This document shows, one piece after another, positions 9,940 to 29,042 of a DNA stretch of 32,529 bases. Origin of the DNA: Thiomargarita sp. (GTDB lineage Bacteria; Pseudomonadota; Gammaproteobacteria; Beggiatoales; Beggiatoaceae); assembly GCA_020720115.1 (NCBI GenBank), contig DYPD01000037.1, positions 1 to 32,529 on the forward strand. The letters run 5' to 3'. The stretch's first letter is position 1; each line of letters begins with the position of its first letter. Both the position numbers and the translations under genes were made by a program. Under the pieces are notes generated by a model. It saw only the letters and a program-made list of their open reading frames with translations. It was not told the origin of the DNA and did not search any database.

Positions 9940-10546
9940 CTTTTGCGGTAGGTGTTTGAGTGTGCGGATTTTTTTTGCCCAGCAACGAAGTACCTGACAT
10001 GACCAGTAGTTGCGCTCGAATAGACAGCCCGGCTTGTTCGGCGGCGGCGAGGTTGATGCCAAAACGCACGCGCTGTCCGGTTTGCAGCAAAGCGATCATA
10101 CCGCCGGCTTCGGCAAAGTTGGGTTGATCGCTGAGGGTGAGAATGGCTGACTGGTGCAAACGCGGCAGCAGCGTGGCAAGCGGCTCGCTCAATGCCTCGC
10201 CGATAAAAGCGAGGTGACACTGGGGCTGGGATTCGCTGGGCTGTATTGTTAATAATTCGATTCTATGTCCTTGAATATTTTTGGTTTTAGTTATACTTTG
10301 CAGGCTGTCGTGCAGCCCTGACGAAATGTGCCCCAACAGGCAAAGCTTAAAAGGCACGGCAGTTTCTGCGCTGTTAAAGTGGGCAGGGGGCCAGGTGACA
10401 AAAAGCGCCAGGCTATAAATCACCTGCGCTTTTTTGCGCTCATCTTCTTCTGCTAAAGGGTCTTCAGCCCAGGCGCTTTTGCTCATGCTTGCCATCAGCA
10501 GGCATAAAATAAACGCCAGTAAAAACCCGGCTTTGAATTTACACAT
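9926..10546 (-). CDS. YfiR-like periplasmic protein (DUF4154)
   Basis: A 206-residue exported protein with an N-terminal signal peptide (about residues 1-28, ending SAWA). The mature part follows the YfiR/HmsC-type pattern: a KAQVIYSLALFVTWP opening, PFKLCLLG, a CHLAFIGE strand, LTLSD, GGMIALLQ, VRFGINLAAAEQAGL and a final strand at QLLVM. In Pseudomonas, YfiR is the periplasmic repressor of the diguanylate cyclase YfiN and is released by the OmpA-like lipoprotein YfiB. Here an OmpA-like lipoprotein precedes it and a large GGDEF/EAL gene is divergently transcribed just beyond, so an analogous role is plausible but inferred. I use the ATG at 10546 rather than the TTG one codon earlier. The last 14 bases overlap pabC. 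Confidence 0.82.
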   Translation of the reverse strand: MCKFKAGFLLAFILCLLMASMSKSAWAEDPLAEEDERKKAQVIYSLALFVTWPPAHFNSAETAVPFKLCLLGHISSGLHDSLQSITKTKNIQGHRIELLTIQPSESQPQCHLAFIGEALSEPLATLLPRLHQSAILTLSDQPNFAEAGGMIALLQTGQRVRFGINLAAAEQAGLSIRAQLLVMSGTSLLGKKNPHTQTPTAKDDAD

Positions 10547-10578
10547 CAAGGGATGACTTCAATATAGTAGGATTACTC

Positions 10579-11977: not shown

Positions 11978-12410
11978 AAGCCATCCTTGCAGAGATGTCC
12001 TGATATACCGCAAAACTGTGAAAAGCGCTGGGTGAGTGTTCATAAGTTGCATTCAGGTGATTTTAAGCTCATTTTCTGCTTTAGGCATATTGAGCGGCGA
12101 TTATACTGCGCGCCGCCTGAAACCGCTCTCAAGGATGTTGATTAAACAATTAAAAATCAATCAGTTGTGTCAAATTTGCTAGAGCAAAAAATGCAGTTTC
12201 TGGCGGGTATGAATAGAGGTTTGTAAGGTTATGGCTCAGGGCTTGGGCGCTGCGCTACTCTAGCTGCTTCGGGTTATAATCTGAATATGCAGATATACTA
12301 AAATATTTTGCTTTGCTCTGTTTGAATTGTTTTTCACACAGCTTATGCGGATAGGTTTGAATGTGCCTCATATCCGCCCTGTTCGCACAAAATTTGAATC
12401 AAGAGCCGCT
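11978..12410. other. Divergent intergenic region
   Basis: This 430-bp spacer separates the YfiR/lipoprotein group (leftward) from the c-di-GMP enzyme gene (rightward). It holds the probable promoters of both. A TATAAT hexamer faces right at 12275-12280. An imperfect repeat TTGATT...AATCAA lies near 12138-12162. In-frame extensions of both genes reach into it but show no protein-family character. Confidence 0.5.
12275..12280 (+). promoter_or_regulatory. Possible -10 element for the GGDEF/EAL gene
   Basis: A consensus TATAAT hexamer lies 131 bp before the chosen ATG. No good -35 box is found at 16-18 bp, so it may depend on an activator or be chance. Confidence 0.3.
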
Positions 12411-15400
12411 ATGACGCAACTTCAATCTCAGCGCATTTTATTAGTGGATGACGCGCCAGAAAACCTAAGCGTTATCTCCAGTTATCTGGAGCGACAAAAC
12501 TTTATCGTGTTGGTTGCCGAAGATGGTTTTACCGCACTAGAGATTGCCTTGCGGGAGACTATTGATCTCATTTTGTTGGATATTCTCATGCCAGAAATGG
12601 ATGGGTTTGAAACCTGCCAGCGTTTGAAATCAGAGCCGCAATGCCGTGATATTCCAGTCATTTTCATGACGTCGCTGAGCGGTGTGCAGCATAAAATCAA
12701 AGCTTTTCACATCGGCGGCGTGGATTATCTGCTGAAACCTGTGCAGCCAGAAGAACTCTGGGCGCGTATCAATCTGCATTTACGACTACGCACCTTACAA
12801 AAGGATTTGGCAGAAAAAAATCGCCAGCTTAATACCAACAATCGCCAACTGCACTACAGCTTACAGCAGCAAAAAATTCTGTTTGATAACTCCCTGGTGG
12901 GTATCGCTTTTTTGAATGGTAATCGGCAAATTGTGCAGGTCAATGACGAATGTGCGCGCATTTTTGGCTATAGCAAAGAAGCCTTAATTGGGCAAAGTGT
13001 GGCGCAGATTTATCCCAATTTAGACCAGTTTGAATACCTCAGTGCGCAGATTTATCCGCTACTCAATGATGGCAAAACCTTTGAAAGCGAGCAGCGCATG
13101 GTGCGCCAAAATGGTGAGTTATTTTGGTGCTATTTGCGCGGCAAAGCCATAGACCCAACCGATGTGTCGCAGGGGTCGGTGTGGAACATTGAAGACATTG
13201 AGCAGCGCAAAGTGGCGGAAGATGATTTGCGTTTGGCAGCGACTGTGTTCAATAGTCTTGGCGAGGCGTTGCTGGTATGCGATCCCAGCACGCATGTGAT
13301 ACGCATCAATCCGGCGTTTACCGAACTGACGGGTTATACGGAAGCGGACATTTTGGGGCAAACGCCCAATATCCTCTCGTCTGGGCTGCATAGCCGCGCT
13401 TTTTTTCAGACCCTGTGGGATGAGTTGCTGCAACAGGGTGAATGGCAAGGCGAAATCTGGAACCGCCGCAAAGATGGCAGCGTGCTGCCGATGCAAAACC
13501 ACATCACGCTGGTACGCCGCCCTGATGGGGCAATTTCTCATTATGTGTCAGTAATTTCCGACATCAGCGAGCGTAAACGCACCGAACAAGAACTCACCTA
13601 TCAAGCGCATTACGACAAGCTTACCCGTTTACCCAACCGTAGTTTGCTGCATGATCGCCTGCTCAATGCCTTAGCGCGTGCCAAGCGACACGGGCAACAG
13701 GTGGCAGTGCTCTATATTGACTTGGATGGGTTTAAAGCCATCAACGACACCTTCAGCCATGACGCGGGCGACCAGGTACTCATTAAGGTTGCTAAGCGTC
13801 TGCAAGAGGCGTTGCGTGAGGAGGACACCGCTGCCCGTTTAGGCGGCGATGAATTTATTGTGCTACTGGCGGATTTAGAATACGCCGAACAGGCGGATGT
13901 GGTGGCAAAGCGTTTGATTGATCGCCTCGCGCTGACTATCAAACAGAATGCGCACCAGCTTTCGGTGTCTGCCAGCATAGGTATCGCGGTGTTTCCGCAC
14001 GATGCAGATGCGGCAGAAAGCCTGTTGCGCCAAGCGGATACTGCCATGTATCGCGCCAAGCAACTGGGCAAGAATACCTATTGTCGCGCTCAGCATAACG
14101 ACTTGAAAACCCTGGGTTTACACAACCAAAGCTGGCGTAAACATGAGGCGGAATGGGGGACGCTGGCGATTGATAATGCCCAAACAGAACAACAGCGCCT
14201 GCTGTATGTTGAAGACAATCCAGTAGATGCGTTACTGGTCGAGGCACTATTGGCACAAGAAGGGTATCTGGTAGACCATGTGGCAACCGGTGCAGAAGGC
14301 ATACAGCGCCTGCACGACGGGCGTTACGCGATGGCGCTGATTGATTACCAATTGCCGGATATGAACGGCATGGATTTGTTGGAATATGCGCTACGCGAGC
14401 ACTTGCCGATTCCGTTGGTGATGGTGACCGCACAAGAAGATGTGGGCGTGGCGGTGGAAGCCATGAAACGCGGCGCAATGGATTATGTGCGCAAGGACGC
14501 AGAACTCGATGGCTTACTGCCCGCCATCGTTGCACGCACCTTGACTGGCAGCCGGATGCGCCAGTTGCAGCGCGAAGCGACTCAAGCCCTAGAAGAAAAA
14601 ACCCTGTATCGCAGCATTTTTGATACGGCTTTTTTGGCGCTGGTGATTATGGACAACGACGGGCGTATTGTGGACGCCAACCAATCGGCTTGCACATTAT
14701 TTGGTTACACACACGAAGCCTTTACCAAGCTCTACGGACAAGTGCTGTTTCATCAAGAAGATTACGGCTTATTCAAGCGTTTCCTGAACGAGACGGAAGA
14801 ATTTCCGCGTTGCGAAATCACCCCGGTCAGTCGCAAAGGCAAAAGCATTTACATCGAAATTCAGCGTTCGCGCTTAACCTATCACGGCGTGGCGCACTGG
14901 TTGGCGCTGATCCGCGACATCAGCGCCCACAAACAAGCCGAAATGCACTTGCGCCAAGCCGCCATCGTGTTTGAACACGCCACCGAAGGCATTTTTATTA
15001 CCAATGCCAAATGCAAAATTCTGGCGGTTAATGAAGCCTTTGTTGGCATCACCCAATACCAAGAAGTAGAAGTGATAGGACACGCGCCGGAGTTTTTTCA
15101 ATCCGGTCGTCACGATCAAGCCTTTTATCGAAACCTCTGGCAATTAGTAGACAGCGAAGGTTTCTGGCAAGGCGAAATCTGGCAACGGCGCAAAAATGGT
15201 GCGCTGTTTGCGGCTTGGCAAGGACTTTCCCGCATCCTTGACGGACAAGGGCGTACCCAGGGCTACATTGGGATTTTCTCCGACATCACCGACCGCAAGC
15301 TGGACGCCGAAAAAATCCAACACCTGCTGCATTATGACGCCTTAACCCACCTGCCCAATCGCGTCCTGCTGCGCGAACGCCTTGAATACGCTTTGCAGCA

Positions 15401-16688
15401 AGCTGCGCATCACCAAAGCATTCTGGTGGTATTGCACTTGGGATTGGATCGCTTCAAAAGCATCAACGAAAGCCTGGGCCCCTTAGCCGGCGACGAACTC
15501 CTACGCGCCTCTGCCTTGCGCCTGCAAAAAGAACTGCCCGCCAATGCGTATTTGGGGCGCGTGGCGGGCGATGAATTTGCCTGCTTTATGGAACTCAAAC
15601 CCGTCGCCTTCACCCAACAAGCCACTGCGTTAGCCATGCAGGTGCTCAGTATTTTTACCCGCCCGTTCAGTATTCAAGAACAAGTTCTGCGCCTCAGCGC
15701 CAGCTTAGGCGTGAGCCTACACCCGCGTGACGGTAGCGACGCCACCACCCTGCTCAAACACGCCAGCACCGCCATGTCCCGCGCCAAACGCCAGGGACCC
15801 AACACTTACCAATTTTACGCCGAAGAACTCACCGCACTGGCACAAGACCGCCTGGAATTAGAAAACGCCCTGCGCCAAGCGATGGATAGCCTCAACCCCA
15901 TGCAACTAAACCCAAACCTCTGTCTTGCACTGGAGGGCTTCTATTTATGCTATCAACCACAGGTGGATTTAAAATCCGGGCGCATTTTTGCCGCCGAAGC
16001 CCTGCTACGTTGGCAACATCCGCAACTGGGCATGATACCGCCAAGCAAATTCATTCCCATCGCCGAAGAAAACGCCCTGATTCTGATTTTAGATCGTTGG
16101 GTGCTATGCCAAGCCTGCCAACAAATGCGCCAGTGGCTAGACGCCGGACTGCCCTTATCCTATATCGCAGTCAATGTCTCGGCGCTACAACTCAGGCGCG
16201 GTGACGTGCTTGGCATGGTGGAACAAGCCCTCAAGCGCAGCGGATTGCCGCCGCAAGTGCTGGAATTAGAAATCACCGAAGGCGTGTTTATCGGCGAATT
16301 AGAACGCGCCAGCACCGTCTTTACCGAACTGCGCGACATGGGCGTGCGCTTGGCAATTGACGACTTTGGCACCGGCTACTCCTCGCTGAGTTACCTAGAA
16401 CACCTGCATGTAGATAAGCTCAAGTTAGATCGCAGCCTACTTGAAGGCGTCGGCAGTAATCCAGACAAAGGCAAAGTCGCCGCTGCCGCTATCGCGCTAG
16501 GATGTGCTCTACAACTCAAAGTGCTGTGTGAAGGGATCGAAAACGAAATGCAAGAGAGTTTCTTGAAAACCAGCGAATGCCACGAAGGACAAGGGTATCT
16601 CTATAGCCAGCCGCTACCCGCCAGCGAATTTGAACAATTCGTGATAAACCGCGCTAAAGCGGCTGAAGCCAAGCAAACAAGCAGTTAA
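12411..16688 (+). CDS. REC-PAS-PAS-GGDEF-REC-PAS-PAS-GGDEF-EAL c-di-GMP enzyme
   Basis: A 1425-residue cytoplasmic hybrid with no membrane segments. Order: REC (about 1-125, phospho-Asp57), PAS (150-260), PAS (265-390), GGDEF (395-560), REC (590-710, phospho-Asp645), PAS (720-840), PAS (850-970), GGDEF (972-1140), EAL (1165-1410). The first GGDEF motif, at 478-482, is intact and preceded five residues earlier by an RxxD inhibitory site (REED, 469-472), so it should make c-di-GMP with product feedback. The second reads AGDEF (1052-1056), its metal-binding Asp is Gly (LGLDRFKSINE) and it lacks RxxD, so it is probably inactive or regulatory. The EAL domain keeps EALLRW (1196-), LEITEG, IDDFGTGYSS, DKLKLD and EGQGYLYSQP and should be an active phosphodiesterase. 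I use the ATG at 12411 just before REC; 12327 is an alternative start. Confidence 0.95.
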   Translation: MTQLQSQRILLVDDAPENLSVISSYLERQNFIVLVAEDGFTALEIALRETIDLILLDILMPEMDGFETCQRLKSEPQCRDIPVIFMTSLSGVQHKIKAFHIGGVDYLLKPVQPEELWARINLHLRLRTLQKDLAEKNRQLNTNNRQLHYSLQQQKILFDNSLVGIAFLNGNRQIVQVNDECARIFGYSKEALIGQSVAQIYPNLDQFEYLSAQIYPLLNDGKTFESEQRMVRQNGELFWCYLRGKAIDPTDVSQGSVWNIEDIEQRKVAEDDLRLAATVFNSLGEALLVCDPSTHVIRINPAFTELTGYTEADILGQTPNILSSGLHSRAFFQTLWDELLQQGEWQGEIWNRRKDGSVLPMQNHITLVRRPDGAISHYVSVISDISERKRTEQELTYQAHYDKLTRLPNRSLLHDRLLNALARAKRHGQQVAVLYIDLDGFKAINDTFSHDAGDQVLIKVAKRLQEALREEDTAARLGGDEFIVLLADLEYAEQADVVAKRLIDRLALTIKQNAHQLSVSASIGIAVFPHDADAAESLLRQADTAMYRAKQLGKNTYCRAQHNDLKTLGLHNQSWRKHEAEWGTLAIDNAQTEQQRLLYVEDNPVDALLVEALLAQEGYLVDHVATGAEGIQRLHDGRYAMALIDYQLPDMNGMDLLEYALREHLPIPLVMVTAQEDVGVAVEAMKRGAMDYVRKDAELDGLLPAIVARTLTGSRMRQLQREATQALEEKTLYRSIFDTAFLALVIMDNDGRIVDANQSACTLFGYTHEAFTKLYGQVLFHQEDYGLFKRFLNETEEFPRCEITPVSRKGKSIYIEIQRSRLTYHGVAHWLALIRDISAHKQAEMHLRQAAIVFEHATEGIFITNAKCKILAVNEAFVGITQYQEVEVIGHAPEFFQSGRHDQAFYRNLWQLVDSEGFWQGEIWQRRKNGALFAAWQGLSRILDGQGRTQGYIGIFSDITDRKLDAEKIQHLLHYDALTHLPNRVLLRERLEYALQQAAHHQSILVVLHLGLDRFKSINESLGPLAGDELLRASALRLQKELPANAYLGRVAGDEFACFMELKPVAFTQQATALAMQVLSIFTRPFSIQEQVLRLSASLGVSLHPRDGSDATTLLKHASTAMSRAKRQGPNTYQFYAEELTALAQDRLELENALRQAMDSLNPMQLNPNLCLALEGFYLCYQPQVDLKSGRIFAAEALLRWQHPQLGMIPPSKFIPIAEENALILILDRWVLCQACQQMRQWLDAGLPLSYIAVNVSALQLRRGDVLGMVEQALKRSGLPPQVLELEITEGVFIGELERASTVFTELRDMGVRLAIDDFGTGYSSLSYLEHLHVDKLKLDRSLLEGVGSNPDKGKVAAAAIALGCALQLKVLCEGIENEMQESFLKTSECHEGQGYLYSQPLPASEFEQFVINRAKAAEAKQTSS

Positions 16689-17700: not shown

Positions 17701-19089
17701 TTAAGCTACCTCTGTCTGCCAATGATGATATTTCTTCAAGTCTTCTTCTTTCACGCGAGACAGTGCATCGGGTGGTAGAATCGAGAGCAACTCCCAAGCT
17801 AAATCTAAGGTTTCAATAATGCTACGGTCTTCGCTTTCGCCTTGTCCGATGAAACGTTTTTCAAAGGCTTGGGCGAAATCCAGATAATTTTTATCTTGCG
17901 AAGAAAGTTCTTCTGCACCGATGATGGATGCCAGATTACGCGCTTCTAGGGCGCGGGTGTAGGAGGCGTAGAGTTGGTTGGCGAGGCGTTGGTGGTCGTC
18001 GCGGGTGAAATCTTTGCCGATGCCGTCTTTCATCAAGCGCGACAGCGACGGCGGTACGTTGACGGGCGGGTATATGCCTTGGTTGTGTAGTTCCCGCGAC
18101 AGTACGATTTGTCCTTCGGTGATGTAGCCCGTGAGGTCGGGAATCGGGTGGGTGATGTCGTCGCTGGGCATACTGACTACGGGCACCATGGTGATGGAGC
18201 CGTGACGGTTTTTGATGCGTCCAGCGCGTTCATAGATTTCTGCTAAATCGGAGTAGAGGTAGCCCGGATAGCCTTTGCGGGCGGGTACGTCGCCTTTGGC
18301 GGTGGCGACTTCGCGCAGGGCTTCGGCGTAGTGGGTCATGTCGGTGATGACGACGAGGACGTGGCGATCCATTTCGTAGGCTAAATATTCGGCGGCGGTT
18401 AAGGCGGTGCGCGGCAGAATCAGGCGTTCCATCGGTGGATCGGAGGCGAGATTGATGAACATGACGACGTTGCTTAACACGCCGCTGGATTCAAATTCGT
18501 CTTGGAAAAACCGTGCATCGGCATAGGACACGCCCATCGCTGCAAAGACTACGGCGAATTGTGATTCTTCGCCGGGCAGTTTGGCTTGTCGCACAATTTG
18601 CGCGGCGAGGCGGTTATGCGGTAGCCCAGAACCGGAAAAAATCGGTAGTTTTTGTCCGCGTACCAGTGAATCTAAGCCGTCAATGGTGGAGATGCCGGTT
18701 TGGATAAATTCTCTGGGGTAGGCGCGGGCGGCGGGGTTGACCGAAGAGCCGTTGACGTTGCGTTTGTGGGCGGAAATAATCGGTGGACGACCGTCGAGGG
18801 GTCTGCCCACGCCGTTGAAGATGCGCCCTAGCAAGTCGGGCGATAGCGGCAATTCAAAGGGTTCGCCGAGAAAACGTACCCAGGTGTTTTCTAAATCTAG
18901 CCCTTCTGTGCCTTCAAACACTTGCACGAGGACGACGGCTTCGGAGGTGCGAATGACTTGTCCGTTGCGTTTGCGCCCGCCACGATCGCGGATCACGACG
19001 CGGTCGCCGAGTGCCACACCTGGAATATTTTTAAGAAACAACAGAGCGCCATTTGCGCCCGATGCCATGCGGTATTCTTTAGCTTTCAT
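17701..19089 (-). CDS. V-type ATPase/ATP synthase subunit B
   Basis: A full-length 462-residue non-catalytic B subunit of an A/V-type rotary ATPase. It starts MKAKEYRMASGANGALLFLK, and carries GRIFNGVGRPLDG at about 88-100 and the degenerate nucleotide site SGSGLPHNRLA from residue 152, which replaces the P-loop of the catalytic A subunit and marks this as B. Other family blocks follow: VFAAMGVSYADARFF, SDPPMERLILPRTALTAAEY, VITDMTHYAEALREV, KGYPGYLYSDLAEIYERAGR and MPSDDITHPIPDLTGYITEG. No A, C, D, E, F, I or K subunit gene is found on either side: upstream is a CheC-like gene about 100 bp away, downstream only a short ORF. It is therefore an isolated copy; whether it serves a rotary enzyme encoded elsewhere or has a private role is open. 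Confidence 0.94.
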   Translation of the reverse strand: MKAKEYRMASGANGALLFLKNIPGVALGDRVVIRDRGGRKRNGQVIRTSEAVVLVQVFEGTEGLDLENTWVRFLGEPFELPLSPDLLGRIFNGVGRPLDGRPPIISAHKRNVNGSSVNPAARAYPREFIQTGISTIDGLDSLVRGQKLPIFSGSGLPHNRLAAQIVRQAKLPGEESQFAVVFAAMGVSYADARFFQDEFESSGVLSNVVMFINLASDPPMERLILPRTALTAAEYLAYEMDRHVLVVITDMTHYAEALREVATAKGDVPARKGYPGYLYSDLAEIYERAGRIKNRHGSITMVPVVSMPSDDITHPIPDLTGYITEGQIVLSRELHNQGIYPPVNVPPSLSRLMKDGIGKDFTRDDHQRLANQLYASYTRALEARNLASIIGAEELSSQDKNYLDFAQAFEKRFIGQGESEDRSIIETLDLAWELLSILPPDALSRVKEEDLKKYHHWQTEVA

Positions 19090-19190: not shown

Positions 19191-19757
19191 TTAAAACAAT
19201 ACTTCGTGGAACAAGAGCACTGCTGTGCCTTGAATTTGTAAACCTGGAGTTTGCATTTGTGCGTGAGCCAATACGAGCAAGGCTTCTGGATCTGCTAGGT
19301 CGCGTTGCAGCAAGTGCAGCAGGCGGTCTTCAACATAGGTGGGAGTGCTGGTATACACCAGGTTGCGGTGCAATTCGTTCGCTACTGCGCCGAGCAAGCC
19401 GCTGAGTAGGATATTGCCGACTTCTGTGATGGCGGCAATATGGATGACTTTTTCGGCAGTATTTATAGAGCGTCCGCCAACGAGTATTTCTACCAGCCGC
19501 GTGGCGCTTTCTTGCGGTAAAACCAATAAGGCAGTGCCAGATAGGTTACTCTTAAAACCCAGGCTGACGATAGATGAGGTTTGTTCGCCTTCTTCAATAT
19601 CCAGTTTGGTGAGTTCGTGACGGCGCAGCAGGCTAATTTCTGGCATGGATAGCTCCACGGGGCTGCGGAGCATGGCATTGAGGGTGCTGGCGGCTTGCTC
19701 TGCGCCAATGCGCAACATTTTTTGCAGTTTTTCTCGGTCTTTGGCGGGGAGTTGCAT
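19191..19757 (-). CDS. CheC-like phosphatase-family protein
   Basis: A 188-residue protein of the CheC/CheX type, cytoplasmic phosphatases that dephosphorylate CheY. The second-half motif AAITEVGNILLSGLLGAVAN supplies the Glu112/Asn115 pair of the E-x-x-N active site. The equivalent N-terminal segment (RIGAEQAASTLNAML, residues 16-30) lacks the glutamate-asparagine pair, so only one of the two CheC sites looks usable. A central block (LSGTALLVLPQESATRLVEILVG) is typical. It follows a CheY-like gene by three bases, with GGAAGG in the CheY 3' end as ribosome site, so enzyme and substrate are probably made together. No CheA or methyl-accepting proteins are nearby, pointing to a non-motility signalling role. 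Confidence 0.75.
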   Translation of the reverse strand: MQLPAKDREKLQKMLRIGAEQAASTLNAMLRSPVELSMPEISLLRRHELTKLDIEEGEQTSSIVSLGFKSNLSGTALLVLPQESATRLVEILVGGRSINTAEKVIHIAAITEVGNILLSGLLGAVANELHRNLVYTSTPTYVEDRLLHLLQRDLADPEALLVLAHAQMQTPGLQIQGTAVLLFHEVLF

Positions 19758-19760
19758 GTT

Positions 19761-20126
19761 TTAGCCTTCCAGCGCCAGACCAATCGCTTTTTGTAGCGTG
19801 TCACTGTCTGGGTCTATGGGTTTGTGCAAGACCATCTGAGCGCCCAGGGTTAAACATTCTTGTTCGGTGCTTTTTTGGATGTCGGCTGTGACCATAATCA
19901 CCGGCATAGCGAGTTTTTGTTCGCGGATTTTGCGCAAGGTAGTAATGCCGTCCATTTCCGGCATTAGCACATCCAGTAACACACAATCCGGCTCATGCTT
20001 GACTGCCATGAGTAAACCGATGCGCCCATTTTCTGCTTCTATTATTTGATGCCCGGCTTCTTCCAAAATAGCGCGGAGATTGGCTCGCTGAAACCAGGAA
20101 TCATCAATAACAAGAATATTCGACAT
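19761..20126 (-). CDS. CheY-like single-domain response regulator
   Basis: A 121-residue receiver with no output domain. It has the acidic pair in ILVIDDSWFQ, the phospho-accepting aspartate in CVLLDVLMPEMDG, the conserved Thr in MVTADI and the Lys in LHKPID, so it should be phosphorylatable. I use the ATG at 20126 rather than a TTG four codons earlier. It lies 26 bp downstream of the CHAT peptidase gene and three bases upstream of the CheC-like gene, all on one strand. Its kinase is unknown: no histidine kinase is present in the window, and the only kinase nearby is the Ser/Thr-type protein at the head of this gene run. Confidence 0.93.
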   Translation of the reverse strand: MSNILVIDDSWFQRANLRAILEEAGHQIIEAENGRIGLLMAVKHEPDCVLLDVLMPEMDGITTLRKIREQKLAMPVIMVTADIQKSTEQECLTLGAQMVLHKPIDPDSDTLQKAIGLALEG

Positions 20127-20152
20127 AAAACGACTCAAACTGAAGTGGCAGC

Positions 20153-22438
20153 TTATAACCAGTTGCCGATTAACAGGAAAGGTGCCCAGTAAGACGGGTG
20201 CCAGTAGCGATCCTGAGCAATCAATTTAAGCTGCACTTTGCGCAGTGCTTTGGCTTTGGTGAGGTTCGGATCATTCATCACTTCACGGTAAAAATCTTTC
20301 ATCATCCCAGAGGTGGCTTCATCGTCTACAAACCATAGGCTTGCCAAGGCGCTACGAGCGCCGGCTTTGACGGCTACACCGGCTAACCCTAATGCAGCGC
20401 GATCATCACCAACTGCCGTGCGACAGGCGCTTAAGGTCAGGAGTTCAATAGGTTTTTCGCGGAATTTACCTAAGCCGATAACATCCTGTAGCTTATTGAT
20501 AGTGAGCTTGCTTTCATAGGTCAGCAAATAGGTGTGTTCGGGGTCGGAGCTAAATTCGCCGTGCGTTGCCATGTGGATGACGGAATATTCTTTGGCTTGC
20601 AGTTTGTCGCGGAAAGCTTCTGTTGAGTAAGCCCCGTTCAGTAATTTGTCACCACCAGTAAGGCTTTGAATAGATTGCAATTCGCTGGGCACGCCGGGAA
20701 GCGGCGGATAGTCTTGTACTGCGTCAGCTAAACCCAGTAATAACACTTGCGCTTCTTTCCAATTGAGCGCCTGCGGATCGGTTAAGGTCAAGCCAGGTGT
20801 GAGCGCCAGCGCGTAGTCTTCTATCAGAAAATGCTGACCGTCGTTTAAGGTGGAAAAAGGAATCATGCGTAACGCTGCGTCTGGCACTACCACGAGGGTA
20901 TCCACTTGATGGCTTTCCAGGGTTGGGCGCAACGGGCGAATGAGCCAGTCGTACAGTTGCCAAGCATTGTACAAAAAGCCATTATCCGGGCGAGTTTGCA
21001 AGCGGCGGCGAAAATCCCGCACCACTTCATCCACCTTTGCGCCCTTAACAGGCGTGGAAAACTGTTGCCATTCGCCCGCAATCCCCAGCAACACCACCAG
21101 CCGCTCTGGTAGCGGCATGGGGTAGATAATGGCGGTGTGTGGGTCTACTTCGTCTAACGCACGCGCTTTGGCAGCGAATTGCGCAACACATTGATCCTGA
21201 AAATAGTTTTCCAGTTCTACGCGCTTGACTTTTTCTACCGTGTTTTGTGCTTCAAACATCAGGGTTTGCGCATCCACTGGTGAAGCCGTTTCTGCTTTAC
21301 GCAGCAACAAATCTGCTAATTCGTAATACACCGGGCGCACGGCGCTGTTGAAATCATCCGGCGAAGTGCGATAACCCAACTCTAAATTGTTTTGAATCGG
21401 CTCTAAAATCGCCAATGAACGCTGGTAAGCGGCAATCGCATCATCGAATTGATGCGCAGCGTTGAGTTGACGCCCTAATTGCCATTCCCAGCGGTATAAA
21501 ATATCTGGCGCATAAATTTGGCGGGCATAAAAAACCGCTTGGCGGGTCAGCGGCTGTGCGGTCTGAATCGCTTGTTGCTGCTCATACAAAGCGCCCAGAT
21601 AGCCAAACGCCATAGAAGCGGTGCGCACATCGCCCAATTGCTCGGCTTCTTTTGCCGCCTGCTGATACACCTGCAAAGCTAGGGTTTGTAACTGCACGGC
21701 GGTTTGCGGATTCTGCGGTTCGCGCAAATGGTATTGCAGCCAACGTTCTGCCAATAAACCCATAGAAATCAAGATGTAATTTTTATCATAGCTGGCAGGT
21801 AAGGTTTTCACCTGGGTTTGCAAGGCTTGCAAGTGCGCTTGGAATTTGTCCAACTCTCCCGCGCTGAACGCAGCATCTGCATAATTTAACAGGATTTTTC
21901 CTTGCAGCAACGCATCACCGGCTTGTTTTGCCAGTTGTTCGGCTTCCTGGTAGCTTGGTTCGCTTTCTTCAAATAAACCCAAAGCACTCTGTGCGTTGCC
22001 CTTGTTGTTCAAAGCGCCGGCTAACAAGCGGGGGTTGTTTAAGGTGCGGGCGATGCTTTCGCTGTCTTTCGCCATGCTCAGCGCCCCGCCGATTTCCCCC
22101 ACCGCCAGCCAGCCGTCGCTGGATTGCGTCAACACTTGACTTTGCAATTCGGCTTCATTCAGCTCGTCGGCCAACAAAATGGCTTCTTGCAAGAGGTTGA
22201 GCACTTCGGTGTGCATACCTAAATGCTGATAAGCCGCACCCAAGCGCATGAGCAATTTCACTCGCTCGGCAGAGGCTTGGTTAGACAGGGCTTGTTGAGC
22301 GGCTTGCCAGATTTCAGCGGCTTTTTGAAAATCTCCTTGTTTAAATGCAACATCGCCATCAGTGGCATCTGCTGCCCAAGTTAAGCTGGAAAAGCACAAC
22401 AGCAAAGAGCAAGAAAGAGTCAGTGAAGTGTTTAGCAT
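20153..22438 (-). CDS. Exported TPR-CHAT peptidase-like protein
   Basis: A 761-residue protein with a signal peptide (LTLSCSLLLCFSSLTWAADA, cut near residue 23), several tetratricopeptide repeats over about 25-400, and a C-terminal CHAT (caspase HetF-associated with TPRs) domain from about 450. The caspase-like dyad is visible: His626 in HMATHGEF and Cys672 in LSACRTA. It is followed by LGLAGVAVKAGARSALASLW, where CHAT domains have a conserved specificity region, and ends in a WAPFLLIGNW strand as usual. The start lies 37 bp after a two-partner-secretion beta-helix gene, a pairing common in cyanobacteria and filamentous sulfur bacteria. It may act on that neighbour or another envelope protein; substrate and role are unknown. 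Confidence 0.9.
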   Translation of the reverse strand: MLNTSLTLSCSLLLCFSSLTWAADATDGDVAFKQGDFQKAAEIWQAAQQALSNQASAERVKLLMRLGAAYQHLGMHTEVLNLLQEAILLADELNEAELQSQVLTQSSDGWLAVGEIGGALSMAKDSESIARTLNNPRLLAGALNNKGNAQSALGLFEESEPSYQEAEQLAKQAGDALLQGKILLNYADAAFSAGELDKFQAHLQALQTQVKTLPASYDKNYILISMGLLAERWLQYHLREPQNPQTAVQLQTLALQVYQQAAKEAEQLGDVRTASMAFGYLGALYEQQQAIQTAQPLTRQAVFYARQIYAPDILYRWEWQLGRQLNAAHQFDDAIAAYQRSLAILEPIQNNLELGYRTSPDDFNSAVRPVYYELADLLLRKAETASPVDAQTLMFEAQNTVEKVKRVELENYFQDQCVAQFAAKARALDEVDPHTAIIYPMPLPERLVVLLGIAGEWQQFSTPVKGAKVDEVVRDFRRRLQTRPDNGFLYNAWQLYDWLIRPLRPTLESHQVDTLVVVPDAALRMIPFSTLNDGQHFLIEDYALALTPGLTLTDPQALNWKEAQVLLLGLADAVQDYPPLPGVPSELQSIQSLTGGDKLLNGAYSTEAFRDKLQAKEYSVIHMATHGEFSSDPEHTYLLTYESKLTINKLQDVIGLGKFREKPIELLTLSACRTAVGDDRAALGLAGVAVKAGARSALASLWFVDDEATSGMMKDFYREVMNDPNLTKAKALRKVQLKLIAQDRYWHPSYWAPFLLIGNWL

Positions 22439-22475
22439 GAGGGGTCTCGTCCGAGTCAGTCATCGTCAGGCATAG

Positions 22476-24851
22476 TTATTCAAAAATAATGTTGCTGGGC
22501 GCCCAGTCACCTTGGCGATTGGGCACACCTTGACGCTCTTTCAGCACAAAGCGGCTGCTGGGTTCTTCGTTCTTGGCACAAGAGGTTTGCAACACTATGT
22601 CGCTATCCAGAAAATCAGTCGAAACCGCCAACACCGCCTCGGCGACATTCACATCGGGAGAGTTAATTTCTACCACGCCATCCACGCCGAATTTGGAAGA
22701 AGCATCAATAGGATTAGCGCCGGCGGGGGGGAATTTGTAAATGCCGGTGGTGTTGATGAGAATATCGCCGCCGTTGCCACGTTCCGCACGCGCAATGATG
22801 GGGGTGTTTTTTTGCACAATAAATTCGGGATTTAGCCAGATATTGCCGCCATTACCGCTGCGTCCTGTGGCTGTGTCAATGACGCTGGTGGTGATAGAAC
22901 TGTTTTGTGCATAAATATACTGCGAGCTGTTGATTGTCACGCTACCGCCGTTAGCGCCATTGGCAGCGGTTGAAATTGCCGCTTGATTGCTCAAACTCAG
23001 CACCCCACGCAAGTTCATGTTGATGTCGCCCGCGTCGCCAAAACCGTCACTCAAGCCCGTGATATAGCCGCCTTTATCCAAGGTCACGCGCTCGGCGTCT
23101 AACGTCAAGCTGCCGCCCTTGCCAGAACCAAAAGTGCCTACTGTGAGTTCGGCGCCATCCAACACTTGCACATGTCCGGCAGTGACTTGAATATTGCCGC
23201 CCGTACCGCTGGCGTCTGTTTGCACAGCAGAGTTTAAACCGCTGAGAAAGCCCTGTGCGTCTTTGCCGCTAAATACCGCAGAATCACTGGCTTTTAGTAC
23301 AATTTCTCCGCCAGCAGCGGGACCAAAAGTAGCGTTTGCTACTTGTGCGCCATCATTAAAGGTGATGGTTTTCGCCTCCAAACTCACACTGCCCCCTGCG
23401 CCTGCGTTGGGTGCTGTCCCGGAAGCATTTGCCGCGATAAAGCTGCCAAAACCACCGCTGTCCAACCCCGCCAACTTGATGCTATCAGCTTGAATTTGCA
23501 CATCGCCGCCACGCCCGCTGCCTTGGGTTTCAGCACTGATTTTTGCGCCATTTAGCAGTGCAAAATGACCCGCCTGTACCTGAATGCGCCCAGCCTTGCC
23601 GCTACTGACTGCGCCAGTCAAGAGGGCGCTGGTATTGCCTTTTTTATCTTCGCCGCTCAAGCTTAAAGAATCACTGGCAGCAATGCGAATTTCCCCGCCG
23701 TTGCCAGTGGTAAAGCTGGTGCTGCTGATTTGCGTACCGTCTTGAATGAGGATTTTTGGCGCTTGGATTTGGATGCTGCCGGAGTTACCGCTGACCTTAA
23801 ATCCCGAAGTGCCCGCATTCGCATTAATGGTATTGCCGAGATCGGCGTTGCCGATAAAGCTATCAGCGGGCGCTGTGCCAGAAAATTCAATACTTTGCGT
23901 GGCAGTCATACGAATATCGCCACCTTGTCCGCTGGAAAAGGTGCTGGTGGTGATCAAATTGCCGTTGCTGATTTTGATAGTGTCCGCTTGCAAGCTGATA
24001 GGTTGTCCAACACCCTGCACAGTGCTTGATGCCAAACGGCTATTATTGATTTCTAGCTGCCCAGCCTGCGCATACAGAGCGCCGCCGCTAGGCGCTTTAG
24101 CCGAGGCAGCAACATTCAATGAGGCTTGATCCAAACGCAAAATACCGCCAGTAGAAGTCATTTCTAAGCCTTGTTCTTGCACACGCACTTCTCCGGCAGT
24201 TTTAACGCTGGCGAGGTTTAAGCGCCCACCTTTAGCTGTTAAACCACCCGCATCTAAGCTCAGATCGCCGCCGACTAAAGACAGGGTTTTGCCGTCAGCC
24301 ACCGCAAGAACGCCGCTCTCTACTTTGAGTGCAGCAGGTGAGCTATCAAAAAAACCAAAGGCGCTGGGAGCAGCACTGCTGAATTGGCTTTGTTCTGGAT
24401 GGGTTGCTTGGAACTTCTGCCCATCGCTAAAATGCAACGCATCTGCGGTGCTGGCATGAAAAGAACCGCGCAAGTCTAAGGTCGCATTAGCGCCAAAAAC
24501 GATCCCTGTCGGATTAAGAAAATACAGGTTTGCACCGCTGATGTCGCTGCCTAGCTTGCCGTCAATAAAGGAAGGTTGTCCGCCGGTGACGCGGCTGACG
24601 ATGTTTTGCACAGTTGCGGGTCCCGAAAACACCGCGCTTTCGCTGGCGTTCAGATTAAAACTCTGGAAACTGTGGAATAGATTAGCACCCTGCTGTCGCC
24701 CTAAATCCGACATAATTGCGTAGTTGGGTCCGGCTAAAGTAACGGTACTGCCTAAGCTGCCATCAGTGACCACTTCCGCACCGACCGATAAGGGCAATAG
24801 CATGACAGCATATTTCAACAAGGCGCACAGCGAGTGCAGTTTCATATACAT
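22476..24851 (-). CDS. Two-partner-secreted filamentous haemagglutinin-type protein (TpsA-like)
   Basis: A 791-residue exported protein. After a signal peptide ending near GAEV comes a TPS (haemagglutination activity) domain over about 25-270, with TDGSLGSTVTLAGPNYAIM, GANLFHSFQSFNLN, NIVSRVTGG and ANLYFLNPTGIVFG (an NPNG-like variant). The rest is right-handed beta-helix repeats rich in GGxIxIxA. The C-terminus (LQTSCAKNEEPSSRFVLKER then QGVPNRQGDW) is the cap seen in the CHAT-associated subgroup rather than long adhesins. I use the ATG at 24851, which has GAGG eight bases upstream; 24863 and 24845 are alternatives. An extended -10 promoter lies upstream. No TpsB/ShlB-type transporter gene is in the window. 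Confidence 0.9.
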   Translation of the reverse strand: MYMKLHSLCALLKYAVMLLPLSVGAEVVTDGSLGSTVTLAGPNYAIMSDLGRQQGANLFHSFQSFNLNASESAVFSGPATVQNIVSRVTGGQPSFIDGKLGSDISGANLYFLNPTGIVFGANATLDLRGSFHASTADALHFSDGQKFQATHPEQSQFSSAAPSAFGFFDSSPAALKVESGVLAVADGKTLSLVGGDLSLDAGGLTAKGGRLNLASVKTAGEVRVQEQGLEMTSTGGILRLDQASLNVAASAKAPSGGALYAQAGQLEINNSRLASSTVQGVGQPISLQADTIKISNGNLITTSTFSSGQGGDIRMTATQSIEFSGTAPADSFIGNADLGNTINANAGTSGFKVSGNSGSIQIQAPKILIQDGTQISSTSFTTGNGGEIRIAASDSLSLSGEDKKGNTSALLTGAVSSGKAGRIQVQAGHFALLNGAKISAETQGSGRGGDVQIQADSIKLAGLDSGGFGSFIAANASGTAPNAGAGGSVSLEAKTITFNDGAQVANATFGPAAGGEIVLKASDSAVFSGKDAQGFLSGLNSAVQTDASGTGGNIQVTAGHVQVLDGAELTVGTFGSGKGGSLTLDAERVTLDKGGYITGLSDGFGDAGDINMNLRGVLSLSNQAAISTAANGANGGSVTINSSQYIYAQNSSITTSVIDTATGRSGNGGNIWLNPEFIVQKNTPIIARAERGNGGDILINTTGIYKFPPAGANPIDASSKFGVDGVVEINSPDVNVAEAVLAVSTDFLDSDIVLQTSCAKNEEPSSRFVLKERQGVPNRQGDWAPSNIIFE

Positions 24852-24944
24852 TAAGAGCCTCATTTTGCTTAAGTTTTAAAGCCAATTTCAGCGCCTCATG
24901 CAAGCCCCGCTGGGAAGCTGCTAGGCGCAAACCCAATTTATCAC

Positions 24945-24953
24945 ACTATACCA
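24945..24953 (-). promoter_or_regulatory. Extended -10 promoter for the TPS-CHAT genes
   Basis: On the minus strand TGGTATAGT gives a TGn extended -10 with TATAGT (5/6 to consensus), about 95 bp before the TPS gene start. It has no good -35, as is usual for extended -10 promoters. It would drive the TPS gene and probably CHAT, CheY and CheC behind it. Confidence 0.45.
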
Positions 24954-25043
24954 CAGCATCAGCGAAAAATACGTCTATGCCATGTACGGCGCGACGGCGC
25001 GATAAGCTAACGCTGGGTGTTGCACGGAAAAAACTCTAATCCA

Positions 25044-25739
25044 TTAGAACATATAAGAAAATCCGGCATTGAAAGAAACAATGTTTTCGTTAATGCTTAA
25101 GCTCAAACTGCTAAAGTTTTCGTGGTAATAATCGTGGCGTATCAGCATGAGTTCGTAGTTCCAGCGTTCGGTAAGCCGCCCGCGCCAACCAAGCGATAAG
25201 CTGGTGCCGCTGGCTTTGCCGCTGGAATCGTCTACGCTGTTGTCTTGGTAACGGGTATCCAGTCTGGCATAAGCAGCACTGAAAAACAGTAGCCCCCGTT
25301 GTGGTATTTGCCAACCAGCCCCTGCACCTATGAAGGGACCCTTACCAGTGAGGCGAATGGCGACACTTGGGTCGCTACTTAATTCAATGCGGGTATTACC
25401 ATATTTGTATCCGGCAAAGGCGCTGATGCTGTCACTCAAGCCATAACCAAGCGAAAATGTGGCGTCTTTGCGTCCAAATGCCAATCCAGCCGTCTCGCTA
25501 CTGGAAGAGATGTCGGTTTCAAAAGAAGTGTCTAAGTACAGGCGTCCGTGGGTTAAGGTCATGCCGAAATCTGCCGAGGTCAGTTGGGCGGACACGTTGG
25601 TAAGTCCGGCGGAATAAGACAGGTTGCGGTGATTGACGGAAAGTTCTGGTATCCATTGCCAGTCTTCTGCTTGCGCGGACAAGGGGTGGCAGGTTGCCAA
25701 TAGGTAAAGGCTTATGCAACAAGCTTTAGAATTCAACAT
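25044..25739 (-). CDS. Outer-membrane beta-barrel protein
   Basis: A 231-residue protein with a signal peptide (cut after about AQA, residue 24). Alternating polar and hydrophobic strands suit a barrel of roughly ten strands (DFGMTLTHGRLYLDTSFE, DATFSLGYGLSDSISAFAGY, GTSLSLGWRGRLTERWNYEL). It ends in FSYMF, the C-terminal aromatic signal recognised by the BAM complex. I do not recognise the family. It is too small and lacks POTRA domains, so it is not the TpsB transporter for the TPS protein next to it. It starts 20 bp after the kinase gene, so kinase and barrel should be one transcript. A role as an envelope sensor or anchor is a guess from position. Confidence 0.8.
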   Translation of the reverse strand: MLNSKACCISLYLLATCHPLSAQAEDWQWIPELSVNHRNLSYSAGLTNVSAQLTSADFGMTLTHGRLYLDTSFETDISSSSETAGLAFGRKDATFSLGYGLSDSISAFAGYKYGNTRIELSSDPSVAIRLTGKGPFIGAGAGWQIPQRGLLFFSAAYARLDTRYQDNSVDDSSGKASGTSLSLGWRGRLTERWNYELMLIRHDYYHENFSSLSLSINENIVSFNAGFSYMF

Positions 25740-25759
25740 AGGTCTTGGTCTCGGCGTTT

Positions 25760-28030
25760 CTAAAACGAAGGCGTCAGCAATAATCGCTCACTGTGGTTTT
25801 GCGGTGTTTGAGGCGGTGGCTGGACCGCGGGAGTAGGGGTATTAAGCTGTTCGCGTAGGGCTTGTTGCAATTGTAGCAATTCCGGCGATTGGGCTTGTAT
25901 GCCTAAGCCTCTGCCGACTAAAACCAGGCTTTCTGCCAATTCTCCAGCAAGTTGCCGTTGGTGTGCCAATGTGGCATAGCGCGAGGCAATGGCTTGTACA
26001 CCCTGCCGTGCTGCTGAATGTTGCGGTTGTAACGCTAATATTTTCTGATAGTTACGATAGGCTTGTTCTAGCTCGTCTTGCGCTAATGCCTGCTGCGCTT
26101 GGGCTAACCAGTCGGCTAAATCGGGTTGGGGAATTGGCTCTGCTGCACGAGGAGCGGCTGCTACTTGTGGTGGCGGCGGCGGGACATAAGCGATTTCCAC
26201 CACAGGCGCGGAAGCAGCAACGCTACTTTCTGCTGGCGTGCTCTGTTCTAACGCCTTTTGTAAGTCCAGTAAAGCGGCGTAAGTAGGTAGAATGCTGAGA
26301 CCTTTTTGAATGAGTTCGTGTTTTTTTGATGGGGTTTGAGCTTGCTCGGCAAGTTCGGCATAGCGTTCGGCAATGCGCTCTGGCAGGCGTTTAACCCGTG
26401 GATCGGTTGCAGCAAGTGCTTGCAAGCTTTGGTAGCTGGCGTAGGCGTTGTCACCCGCAGGTGTGGTCAGTTTGTGTGTGGCAAGTTGTTGCTCGGCTTG
26501 CGCAAGCAGGGCTTCTAGCTGCTCTTGTTGTGCCTGAGCCGCCAGACTTTGCATGAAGTTTTGCTGCAAACTTTGCAGATCGCGGCGGCGGTTTGGAAAA
26601 TACTCGGCGGTTTGCTGAAGTAATGCAAGTCCCGCTGGGTATTGCGCCTGCTGATACAGGTTTTGCGCTTGTGCTAAACGCTGTTGGGCGAGTTCTTCTA
26701 ACCCTTGCTGCGCTTCGGGGTGGGCGGGCTGCAATTGCAAAACCGCAGCATAGCTTTGGTAAGCTGCAACAAAATCTGTTGCGCTGCGGTCTTTGGCATA
26801 ACGCAGCCAATAGGCTATCGCGGCTTGTAGCGGATCAGGTGCCGGCAGACTGGGAGAGGTTTCCATGTTGGATTCGGCGACGGCGACAGGAAAAGTCGCT
26901 GCCTGTGCGGTGATAGCTGGCGTGGGCGGAGGCGGTGTGTCTAATTGCCAAACAAGCGTCAGCAAGGCTATCGAGCACGCAGCAAACAGGCTATAGAGAA
27001 AGGCTGGGCGCGGCTTAGCGGGTTTGGGTTGCGCGATCAAGGCAGCACGAAATGCGGCAATATTTTGCCAGCGCCGCGTTGCTTGCACGGCTAAGGCGGT
27101 TTTTAACGCGGCTTGGATGACAGGCGCACGGAGATCATCAGTTTCAGCTAAGGCGATGCGCAGATTATCCTGTTGCCAGCGTTCCGTTGCGGCGGGCGGC
27201 AATTGCCCGTGTAGCAATAAATACAGCAGCGCAGCGCAGGCATAAATGTCTGTCCAAGCGCCTATGTTGCCCTGATCTGAGTATTGTTCCAGCGGCGAAT
27301 AACCAGGTTTGAGCACCAGCGTCATGCTGCGGGTGTATTCGGCAATCACGCTGACACTGCGAGCGGCGCCGAAATCAATCAGCACCGGCACTTCATGGTG
27401 CGTCAGCAAAATGTTATGTGCCGAAACATCCAGATGAAACACCTGTTGCGCATGAACCACTTCCAGCGCATCCAAAATCGGCAAGAGGATGTCCAGCGCC
27501 TCGTCAATGCCCAACCGCCCACCGCGCTCGCATAAACGCCGTGCGGGATTATCGCCTTCCAGGTATTCCATGACCATGTAAGCGGTCTGGTTTTCGCTGA
27601 AATAATTCAACACCCGCACTATGTTGGGGTGATCAAATTTTGCCAGATTGCGGGCTTCGCTAATGAAGGAATCCAGCCCTTTTTGTAAGGCTTGAGCTTG
27701 GTTGCGCTGAGGAATGACTTGCCCCGTGTTTGGATCACGCAACGCTAGACCGGAAGGCAGGTATTCTTTAATCGCTACACGTTTGTTAAGGCGCGTGTCT
27801 AAGCCTATGTAAGTAATGCCAAAACCACCCTGTCCTAAAACCCGCCCTAGGCTATATTGTCCCTGTAGCAAGGTCTGCGGTGACAGATAAAGAGGATGCG
27901 GGTAATAGCTTTGATCAGGGTGTCCACAATGCGGGCAGGCGGCGGCTGAAGCTTCAAATTCTCCCATGCAGTGGATGCAGCGAATGCGCAAACAGAGTTT
28001 GGTATCATCAGGGCATTGGGTGTTGTTCAT
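25760..28030 (-). CDS. Zinc-ribbon Ser/Thr protein kinase with TM segment and TPR-like periplasmic region
   Basis: A 756-residue protein. Residues 18-35 carry CxxC...CxxC (CIHC, CPHC), a zinc ribbon. The kinase domain runs from about 57 to 330, with glycine loop GQGGFG (67-), Lys88 in VAIKEY, Glu125 in helix C and DFG at 219-221. The catalytic loop reads HLDVSAHN (199-206) in place of HRDxKPxN: the base Asp201 and Asn206 are kept, but Arg and the usual Lys are replaced. A membrane helix at about 344-362 (LYSLFAACSIALLTLVWQL) is followed by a Gln/Ala-rich helical repeat region to the end, probably TPR-like and periplasmic. I start at the ATG at 28030, which has GGGG upstream, rather than a TTG at 28054. 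It leads the kinase-barrel-TPS-CHAT run. Confidence 0.9.
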   Translation of the reverse strand: MNNTQCPDDTKLCLRIRCIHCMGEFEASAAACPHCGHPDQSYYPHPLYLSPQTLLQGQYSLGRVLGQGGFGITYIGLDTRLNKRVAIKEYLPSGLALRDPNTGQVIPQRNQAQALQKGLDSFISEARNLAKFDHPNIVRVLNYFSENQTAYMVMEYLEGDNPARRLCERGGRLGIDEALDILLPILDALEVVHAQQVFHLDVSAHNILLTHHEVPVLIDFGAARSVSVIAEYTRSMTLVLKPGYSPLEQYSDQGNIGAWTDIYACAALLYLLLHGQLPPAATERWQQDNLRIALAETDDLRAPVIQAALKTALAVQATRRWQNIAAFRAALIAQPKPAKPRPAFLYSLFAACSIALLTLVWQLDTPPPPTPAITAQAATFPVAVAESNMETSPSLPAPDPLQAAIAYWLRYAKDRSATDFVAAYQSYAAVLQLQPAHPEAQQGLEELAQQRLAQAQNLYQQAQYPAGLALLQQTAEYFPNRRRDLQSLQQNFMQSLAAQAQQEQLEALLAQAEQQLATHKLTTPAGDNAYASYQSLQALAATDPRVKRLPERIAERYAELAEQAQTPSKKHELIQKGLSILPTYAALLDLQKALEQSTPAESSVAASAPVVEIAYVPPPPPQVAAAPRAAEPIPQPDLADWLAQAQQALAQDELEQAYRNYQKILALQPQHSAARQGVQAIASRYATLAHQRQLAGELAESLVLVGRGLGIQAQSPELLQLQQALREQLNTPTPAVQPPPQTPQNHSERLLLTPSF

Positions 28031-28190: not shown

Positions 28191-29042
28191 TTATTCCGTT
28201 TGTTGCCAAGTGAGTGCTTGGGCGTACAACGCATTTTTGGCAATACCCGTAATCTGACTGGCTAACTGAGCGGCTTGTTTAAGCGGCAATGCAGCCGCTA
28301 AAACGCGCAGCACTCGCTCCGCTTGCGCGTCTAGTTGGTGCAACGCGGGCGGTGCGCCTGCCAGCAATACCACAAATTCGCCTTTGCAACGCTCTGCCGC
28401 TTCAAGCAACCAGGCTTGTAGCTCGGCTAAAGTACCGCGCTTCACGGTTTCGTAGATTTTACTCAATTCCTTCACCAGCACTGCCTCACGTTGCGTGCCA
28501 AAAACTTCACATAAATCCGCAAAACAGTCCAAAATGCGATGTGGCGCTTCGTAAAATACCAGCGTGTATTGCGCGTCACTCAACGCCTGCAACGCTTGCA
28601 CACGCGCCTGATGTTTAGCCGGCAAAAAACCCAGAAACATGAATTGGTCGGCGGGTAAACCCGCCGCAGACAAAGCGGCAATCAAAGCATTGGGGCCGGG
28701 TAGTGGACTAACACGGATTTGCGCAGCATGAGCAGCACTGACCAACCGCGCCCCCGGATCGCTGATCAGCGGCGTTCCCGCGTCGCTGATTAAGGCAATG
28801 TCTTCCCCTTTAAGCAACTGTTGCAAAAGCTGTTGCGTCACGCTCTGCTCGTTGTGCTCATGCAGCGCCTGCAAGGGCGTATGAATGGCAAAATGTGCTA
28901 ACAAGGGACGACTATGGCGCGTATCTTCAGCGGCAATCAAGCTAACTTGCTGTAAAACCTGTTGCGCACGCGGCGAGAGGTCTTGTAAGTTACCGATAGG
29001 CGTTGCCACTACATACAAGCAACCTGTCTGTGCTATAGGCAT
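28191..29042 (-). CDS. rsmI: 16S rRNA (cytidine-1402-2'-O) methyltransferase
   Basis: A 283-residue SAM-dependent tetrapyrrole-methylase-fold enzyme that methylates the 2'-O of C1402 in the ribosomal P site. Family motifs: LYVVATPIGNLQDLSPRA at the N-terminus, AAEDTRHSRPLL, LQALHEHNE, ALISDAGTPLISDPGARLV, SPLPGPNALIAALSAAGL, FLGFLPAK, TLVFYEAPHRI and KELSKIYETVKRG. Everything expected is present and the length is normal. Upstream on the same strand is a PilZ gene about 165 bp away. In many gammaproteobacteria rsmI neighbours lpoA/yraN; neither is seen here. Confidence 0.97.
   Translation of the reverse strand: MPIAQTGCLYVVATPIGNLQDLSPRAQQVLQQVSLIAAEDTRHSRPLLAHFAIHTPLQALHEHNEQSVTQQLLQQLLKGEDIALISDAGTPLISDPGARLVSAAHAAQIRVSPLPGPNALIAALSAAGLPADQFMFLGFLPAKHQARVQALQALSDAQYTLVFYEAPHRILDCFADLCEVFGTQREAVLVKELSKIYETVKRGTLAELQAWLLEAAERCKGEFVVLLAGAPPALHQLDAQAERVLRVLAAALPLKQAAQLASQITGIAKNALYAQALTWQQTE

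Follow-up and report, generated by a model that had tools for sequence, protein, structure and literature searches.

Three conserved gene pairs in a six-gene run of Thiomargarita sp., one of them a candidate trans-envelope pair of a Ser/Thr kinase and an outer-membrane barrel

In the FecA-FecR and PupB-PupR systems, an outer-membrane barrel passes a signal across the periplasm to a protein of the inner membrane, and transmembrane Hanks-type kinases of the PknB/PASTA kind combine a cytoplasmic kinase domain and one transmembrane helix with an extracytoplasmic sensor region. No Ser/Thr kinase is known to us that has an outer-membrane barrel as its dedicated partner, and text searches of the literature consulted returned nothing on point for such a combination. 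Here, we analysed the complete 32.5-kb contig DYPD01000037.1 (C72; hereafter ‘the window’) of a Thiomargarita sp. draft genome (G000; 3.86 Mb in 185 contigs, 99.5% complete). Six consecutive genes on its minus strand (positions 19191-28030) code for a membrane Ser/Thr kinase, an outer-membrane barrel, a two-partner-secretion (TPS) exoprotein, an exported CHAT peptidase, a CheY-like receiver and a CheC-like phosphatase (Table 1). The initial annotation had read this run as a candidate for one coupled envelope-signalling or cell-fate system. Its description of strand, order and domains was borne out, the single coupled system was not, and nothing was found in support of a role in cell fate. Instead, our comparison argues, with a probability of about 0.68, that the run consists of three conserved gene pairs brought side by side in this lineage only, and that kinase and barrel work as a pair in trans-envelope signalling.

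We searched 43 genomes of the order, mostly metagenome-assembled genomes (MAGs), with each of CheC, barrel, kinase, CHAT and TPS and mapped the neighbourhoods; absence calls are dependent on the cut-offs. The relatives of the window genome are Beggiatoa-like sulfur bacteria, and none of the other 42 genomes holds the full six-gene set, so that the co-occurrence in related genomes, on which the initial annotation had made its proposal depend, fails for the six genes together. The only other genome of the genus, MAG BB31 (G003), carries three intact pairs in the interior of three contigs: kinase-barrel, as pilZ-rsmI-kinase-barrel, on C248 (140,579 bp), TPS-CHAT on C161 (62,837 bp) and CheY-CheC on C132 (16,950 bp). 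In each case, DNA homology to the window stops at the gene borders, and convergent or unrelated genes flank the pair: an extra Sel1-repeat gene lies between rsmI and the kinase, and the barrel is followed by pgl and spoT, both convergent; prpB-prpC lie ahead of TPS, with a convergent Roc-COR gene after CHAT; a convergent dnaA follows CheC. Since the flanks differ and homology ends at the gene borders, each pair is a complete unit elsewhere. The three pairs may share one transcript in the window genome; selection has not kept them together.

Family membership was called at E < 1e-25 for the barrel (one clear member per genome, next matches > 1e-9) and at E < 1e-95 for the zinc-ribbon kinase. 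The barrel is present in 28 and the kinase in 29 of the 43 genomes: 28 hold both, one holds the kinase only, none the barrel only and 14 neither (Fisher test, 2e-10). Among genomes that are at least 90% complete, 24 hold both, none the kinase or the barrel alone and nine neither (2.6e-8). The kinase-only genome is an 80%-complete MAG (G030), in which the kinase sits on a 3.6-kb contig. On a RecA tree of 40 genomes, we counted seven losses of the kinase and eight of the barrel, which disagree at one tip; 20,000 random placements gave a mean of 18 discordant tips and a minimum of five. The tree implies about seven joint losses of kinase and barrel, and the strongest hint that the two share a function is that they are lost together without being linked. 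The coupling of kinase and barrel, a part of the initial proposal, is hence strongly supported by joint presence and joint loss. As a separate observation, the recA open reading frames (ORFs) in L220, L221, L222, L223 and L224 (G040, G041, G015, G019 and G020) are 536-697 aa long, and their insertion near position 197 of the RecA model would fit with inteins in these proteins.

Both genes are adjacent in nine of the 28 genomes (G000, G003, G014, G019, G020, G023, G028, G031 and G035), five of which show gaps of 1-25 bp. A search with seven barrels recovered 14 loci, in Beggiatoa-like, Thiotrichales or gammaproteobacterial MAGs, and a barrel profile found nine further genomes (E 1e-14 to 1e-28) among 369 gammaproteobacterial ones. 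Outside the order, the barrel adjoins a membrane kinase in two different families, with the order kinase then barrel in G232 and barrel then kinase in G336, where the kinase has TPR-like sequence; in G249, it follows a hybrid histidine kinase and a receiver protein. Judging from these three genomes, the placement of such a barrel beside a signalling protein recurs.

The kinase opens with a CxxC...CxxC zinc ribbon, followed by a Hanks-type kinase domain (Pfam Pkinase, 1.6e-30; VAIKEYLP, HLDVSAHN, DFGAAR), the catalytic loop of which reads HLD, not HRD. Its single transmembrane helix lies at about residues 342-363 in the model, with the hydropathy peak at ORF residue 351, and beyond it two blocks of TPR-like helices, predicted to be periplasmic, a variable linker and a disordered end are modelled. 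This layout resembles that of the PknB/PASTA kinases but differs from it in the N-terminal zinc ribbon, in the TPR-like helices that replace the PASTA repeats (no PASTA domain was found in the kinase; PknB_PASTA 124.5 bits versus a cut-off of 450), in a conserved C-terminal tail and in an outer-membrane barrel as genomic partner. All 29 kinases of the family end in x-P-[ST]-F-COOH (25 TPSF, 2 TPTF, 1 APSF, 1 IPTF); P and F are invariant, whereas no more than seven residues further upstream conservation is already below half. The tail occurs in none of 12 paralogous kinases of the order, one of them a zinc-ribbon paralogue, and the barrel-linked kinases of G232 and G336 both end in RVFGTF-COOH after a low-complexity linker. 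Barrel-linked kinases have in common a conserved phenylalanine-ending tail. A role of the tail as genome-wide sorting signal or common tag was ruled out, as the T-P-S-F-stop codon pattern gave 15 matches in the genome versus 16 for a reversed control. We also noted a 580-aa zinc-ribbon Ser/Thr kinase (L240) without the P-[ST]-F tail in G038, a genome without the barrel.

The barrel (231 aa) matches Pfam OMP_b-brl with 26.4 bits, below the cut-off of 28.7. Its model shows 10 strands at a predicted local distance difference test (pLDDT) score of 87.9, and its C terminus is aromatic, as in outer-membrane proteins. The modelled fold resembles the 10-stranded barrels of omptins (pOmpT: VIA-align Z 23.3, root-mean-square deviation (rmsd) 2.2, 200 aligned) and of OpcA (Z 22.0, rmsd 2.0, 194 aligned), but at about 10% identity only. 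Since the omptin signatures PS00834 and PS00835 are absent from all 23 family barrels searched, it is only the fold that is common to them; the window barrel has no omptin Pfam match, and we discarded an identity as omptin protease.

Following this argumentation, the 10-stranded barrel would reside in the outer membrane. The kinase would sit in the inner membrane and extend its TPR-like helices and flexible linker into the periplasm. Its P-[ST]-F end would dock on the barrel or on an outer-membrane partner, and the state of the barrel would alter the activity of the cytoplasmic kinase. The physical contact, the binding target of the tail and the direction of the signal, as well as its stimulus and targets, are what we infer here. 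Such a pair would carry an outer-membrane signal inward, as FecA-FecR and PupB-PupR do, but with a small 10-stranded barrel instead of a TonB-dependent receptor and a protein kinase instead of an anti-sigma factor; no sigma or anti-sigma gene was found among the identified neighbours. We tentatively propose, at somewhat less than even odds, that this Ser/Thr kinase directly reads the outer membrane, by way of a dedicated 10-stranded barrel that engages the P-[ST]-F tail via a periplasmic TPR arm, that the unit is kept across Beggiatoa-like bacteria and that the layout, with another tail, is found in at least two other gammaproteobacterial families.

Several points weigh against our interpretation of pair and run. 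In 19 of the 28 genomes, kinase and barrel are not linked (in many genomes outside the nine with adjacent genes, the kinase is instead divergent from a biotin-carboxylase/BCCP operon), and for that reason a common life style, not contact, could lie behind their joint loss. The RecA tree rests on a single gene and is without the window genome, which had no RecA match. Overall confidence in the kinase model is low (mean pLDDT 64.9), and we therefore drew on its secondary structure alone. Finally, some linkage beyond the pairs recurs in two partial clusters: kinase-barrel-CheY-CheC, followed by a PAS-GGDEF-EAL gene and without TPS-CHAT, in G023, and kinase-barrel-TPS, followed by a second kinase, in G028. 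That a common life style, with no interaction of the two proteins, led to the co-loss is nevertheless rather unlikely in our view. Several of the genomes with neither gene are small or incomplete, as this explanation would have it, but they also include large, 99% complete ones (G033, G034 and G039), and G032, which belongs to the same genus (g20) as G033 and G034, has both genes; similar splits are seen in genera g19 and g6. Adjacency in nine genomes, and independently in two other families, likewise argues for more than parallel losses.

For the second pair, the closest described proteins are TPR-CHAT proteins such as Csx29 of Craspase, in which TPRs precede a CHAT domain with a His-Cys dyad (PMC9729208). 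The window peptidase shares this organisation (CHAT domain 1.1e-60, 206 bits) but, unlike Csx29, has a signal peptide and a TPS partner, and no CRISPR genes are among the identified genes of the window. Numerous metacaspases have been reported from Thiomargarita (PMC4853749), and for Beggiatoaceae, CHAT proteins in the vicinity of receiver proteins have been described (PMC5108060); text searches of the literature consulted for a fusion of CHAT and TPS gave nothing on point. The exoprotein has a signal peptide and an N-terminal TPS domain (PF05860, 4.9e-38; adhes_NPXG, 6.7e-19), and a TpsB (ShlB over cut-off) is encoded at an unlinked site (G000:C35:8453-9460). TPS and CHAT genes neighbour each other at less than 2 kb in G003, G002 and several other genomes (for example G003:C81, G040, G041:C89, G035:C98, G028:C49, G029:C194 and G030:C497). 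Moreover, G030, G029 and G010 hold in-frame fusions, single ORFs of 1086-1470 aa with N-terminal TPS and C-terminal CHAT, one of the three with TPRs between the domains. Given the recurrent neighbours, the three fusions and the TpsB in the genome, a functional pairing of TPS and CHAT, also part of the initial proposal, is likely. The TPS protein would be a surface or secreted beta-helix exported by the TpsB encoded elsewhere in the genome, and the CHAT peptidase, which carries a signal peptide of its own, would act on or with this protein, its presumed substrate; it may mature or shed the TPS protein or be displayed together with it.

The third pair joins a receiver with conserved Asp/Thr/Lys residues (Response_reg, 6.4e-28) to a CheC-like protein (CheC_Thtogales, 3.2e-11), and a profile of the CheC relatives finds the solved CheC 1xkr at 3.3e-23. 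Homology thus bears out the designation as CheC-type phosphatase, but just the second E-x2-N motif is kept and the first reads K-x2-R, whereas the rest of the family keeps both. Both CheC-like proteins of the genus (window 19191-19757 and L024:14484-15044) deviate at the first motif. Membership in the CheC family by profile and a receiver partner are shared with CheC/CheX phosphatases; the single E-x2-N site and the locus without a che operon (no CheA, CheW or receptors among the genes identified in the window) are not. CheC of G000 and G003 is just 20-27% identical to the others. CheY-CheC is present in 23 genomes of the order, paired in nearly all, usually overlapping or within a few bases, and also in other families.

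Histidine kinases are the expected phosphodonors for a receiver aspartate, and they adjoin CheY-CheC in relatives: a PAS-HK-REC-Hpt hybrid kinase (scanned in G015; the same cluster is found in G019 and G020) and, in family f64 (L183:3330-9487 and L178:2026-8165; domains scanned in L183), a same-strand series of RR-SpoIIE-HATPase, CheY, CheC, a PAS histidine kinase and a Ser/Thr kinase with a cNMP-binding domain. CheY-CheC is therefore likely a phosphorelay pair with a histidine kinase as phosphodonor, and for the same reason the Ser/Thr kinase, which the initial annotation had put up for testing as donor to the receiver, is not favoured in that role. In the window genome, the receiver would obtain its phosphoryl group from an unlinked histidine kinase and lose it through CheC. 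A link of kinase and barrel to CheY-CheC is weakly suggested by the contiguous genes of G023 and by G004/G005, where the barrel is three genes away from CheY-CheC and divergently oriented.

The same arrangements could derive from an ancestral kinase-barrel-CheY-CheC unit into which TPS-CHAT was inserted later in the lineage of the window, as the gene order of G023 equals that of the window minus TPS-CHAT. We regard this as unlikely, since CheY-CheC lies elsewhere in G003, the CheC proteins of the genus are so divergent, and kinase, barrel and CheY-CheC are apart in most genomes. A chimeric contig, or recent random rearrangements without meaning, would explain why the joins of barrel to TPS and of CHAT to CheY are seen in no second genome and why the flanking genes also differ in G003, but these joins fall between genes, in gaps of 180 and 26 bp and in one orientation, and show no tandem repeat, which makes such an origin unlikely. 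That all six genes form one envelope or cell-fate system, with surface protein, CHAT protease and receiver wired to the kinase, is very improbable: the common strand, the short gaps, the clusters of G023 and G028 and a barrel within five genes of CheY-CheC in three lineages (about 0.05 genomes expected by our estimate) speak for it, but the set is absent from other genomes, the pairs are separate within the genus, kinase and barrel occur without CheC in seven genomes and CheC without kinase and barrel in two, and one TPS gene adjoining a barrel in 28 genomes is close to chance (about 0.2 expected by our estimate), as TPS and CHAT are multicopy.

Table 1 Features of the six-gene run and of related loci (positions refer to the window unless a locus is named; modules 1 to 3 are the three gene pairs).
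Feature	Module	Position	Strand	Remarks
Membrane Ser/Thr kinase	1	25760..28030	-	ATG start; ORF open to 28054; ends LTPSF
Conserved tail codons T-P-S-F + stop		25760..25774	-	tail in 29 of 29 family kinases, in 0 of 12 paralogous ones
Outer-membrane barrel with signal peptide	1	25044..25739	-	predicted 10 strands
Gap between modules 1 and 2, 180 bp		24864..25043	-	holds extended -10-like TGGTATAGT
TPS exoprotein with NPTG motif	2	22476..24863	-	TPS domain, adhes_NPXG
Exported TPR-CHAT peptidase	2	20153..22438	-	H626/C672
Single-domain receiver (CheY-like)	3	19761..20126	-	ATG start; Response_reg
CheC-like phosphatase	3	19191..19757	-	one predicted active site; CheC profile
rsmI		28191..29042	-	kept upstream of kinase in G003 and G042; outside the system
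TPS-CHAT fusion loci		L159:36-4448, L160:985-4653, L161:1266-4526		three Beggiatoa-like genomes

From kinase to CheC, the intergenic gaps are 20, 180, 37, 26 and 3 bp; the four short ones agree with the initial annotation, which had put the spacing ahead of the TPS gene at about 190 bp. The extended -10 described there is visible as TGGTATAGT, but as a consensus match only. A promoter scan found seven candidates versus 8.3 in shuffles, within chance expectation, and the 180-bp region has no convincing homology to the region upstream of TPS in G003. In PADLOC, P0001 drew kinase-domain matches of a generic kind only, the other genes weak ones or none, and no complete system came up; a reading as defence system was dropped.

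The run is flanked by rsmI upstream of the kinase and, downstream of CheC, by an orphan V/A-type ATPase B gene (17701-19089; homologues L226 and L227) with no A or D subunit gene adjoining. Its G003 counterpart, with an integrase-like ORF nearby, shows 94% identity, and that of G042 81%. Elsewhere in the window, we noted a 1453-aa protein (12327-16688) with, by eye, two receivers, a PAS domain, two GGDEF-like stretches and an EAL-like end, a YfiR/HmsC-like gene (9926-10549), a 530-aa protein made up almost entirely of leucine-rich repeats (4436-6028), between heme oxygenase and acyltransferase-like genes, and, at the contig end (31404-32373), a HicA-like toxin ORF with a Cro/C1-type helix-turn-helix gene.

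Our analysis corrects an attractive but wrong reading, as the neat same-strand run in one draft genome did not prove to be a conserved operon. The TPS-CHAT fusions, found within the same family, provide a direct lead to the substrate of exported CHAT peptidases. To what stimuli bacterial Ser/Thr kinases respond is still an open question, and the kinase-barrel pair looks like an undescribed route by which the outer surface is reported to the cell interior. If real, the pair would make binding simple to test, with a defined ligand (the four C-terminal residues of the kinase) and a defined partner (the single barrel of each genome).

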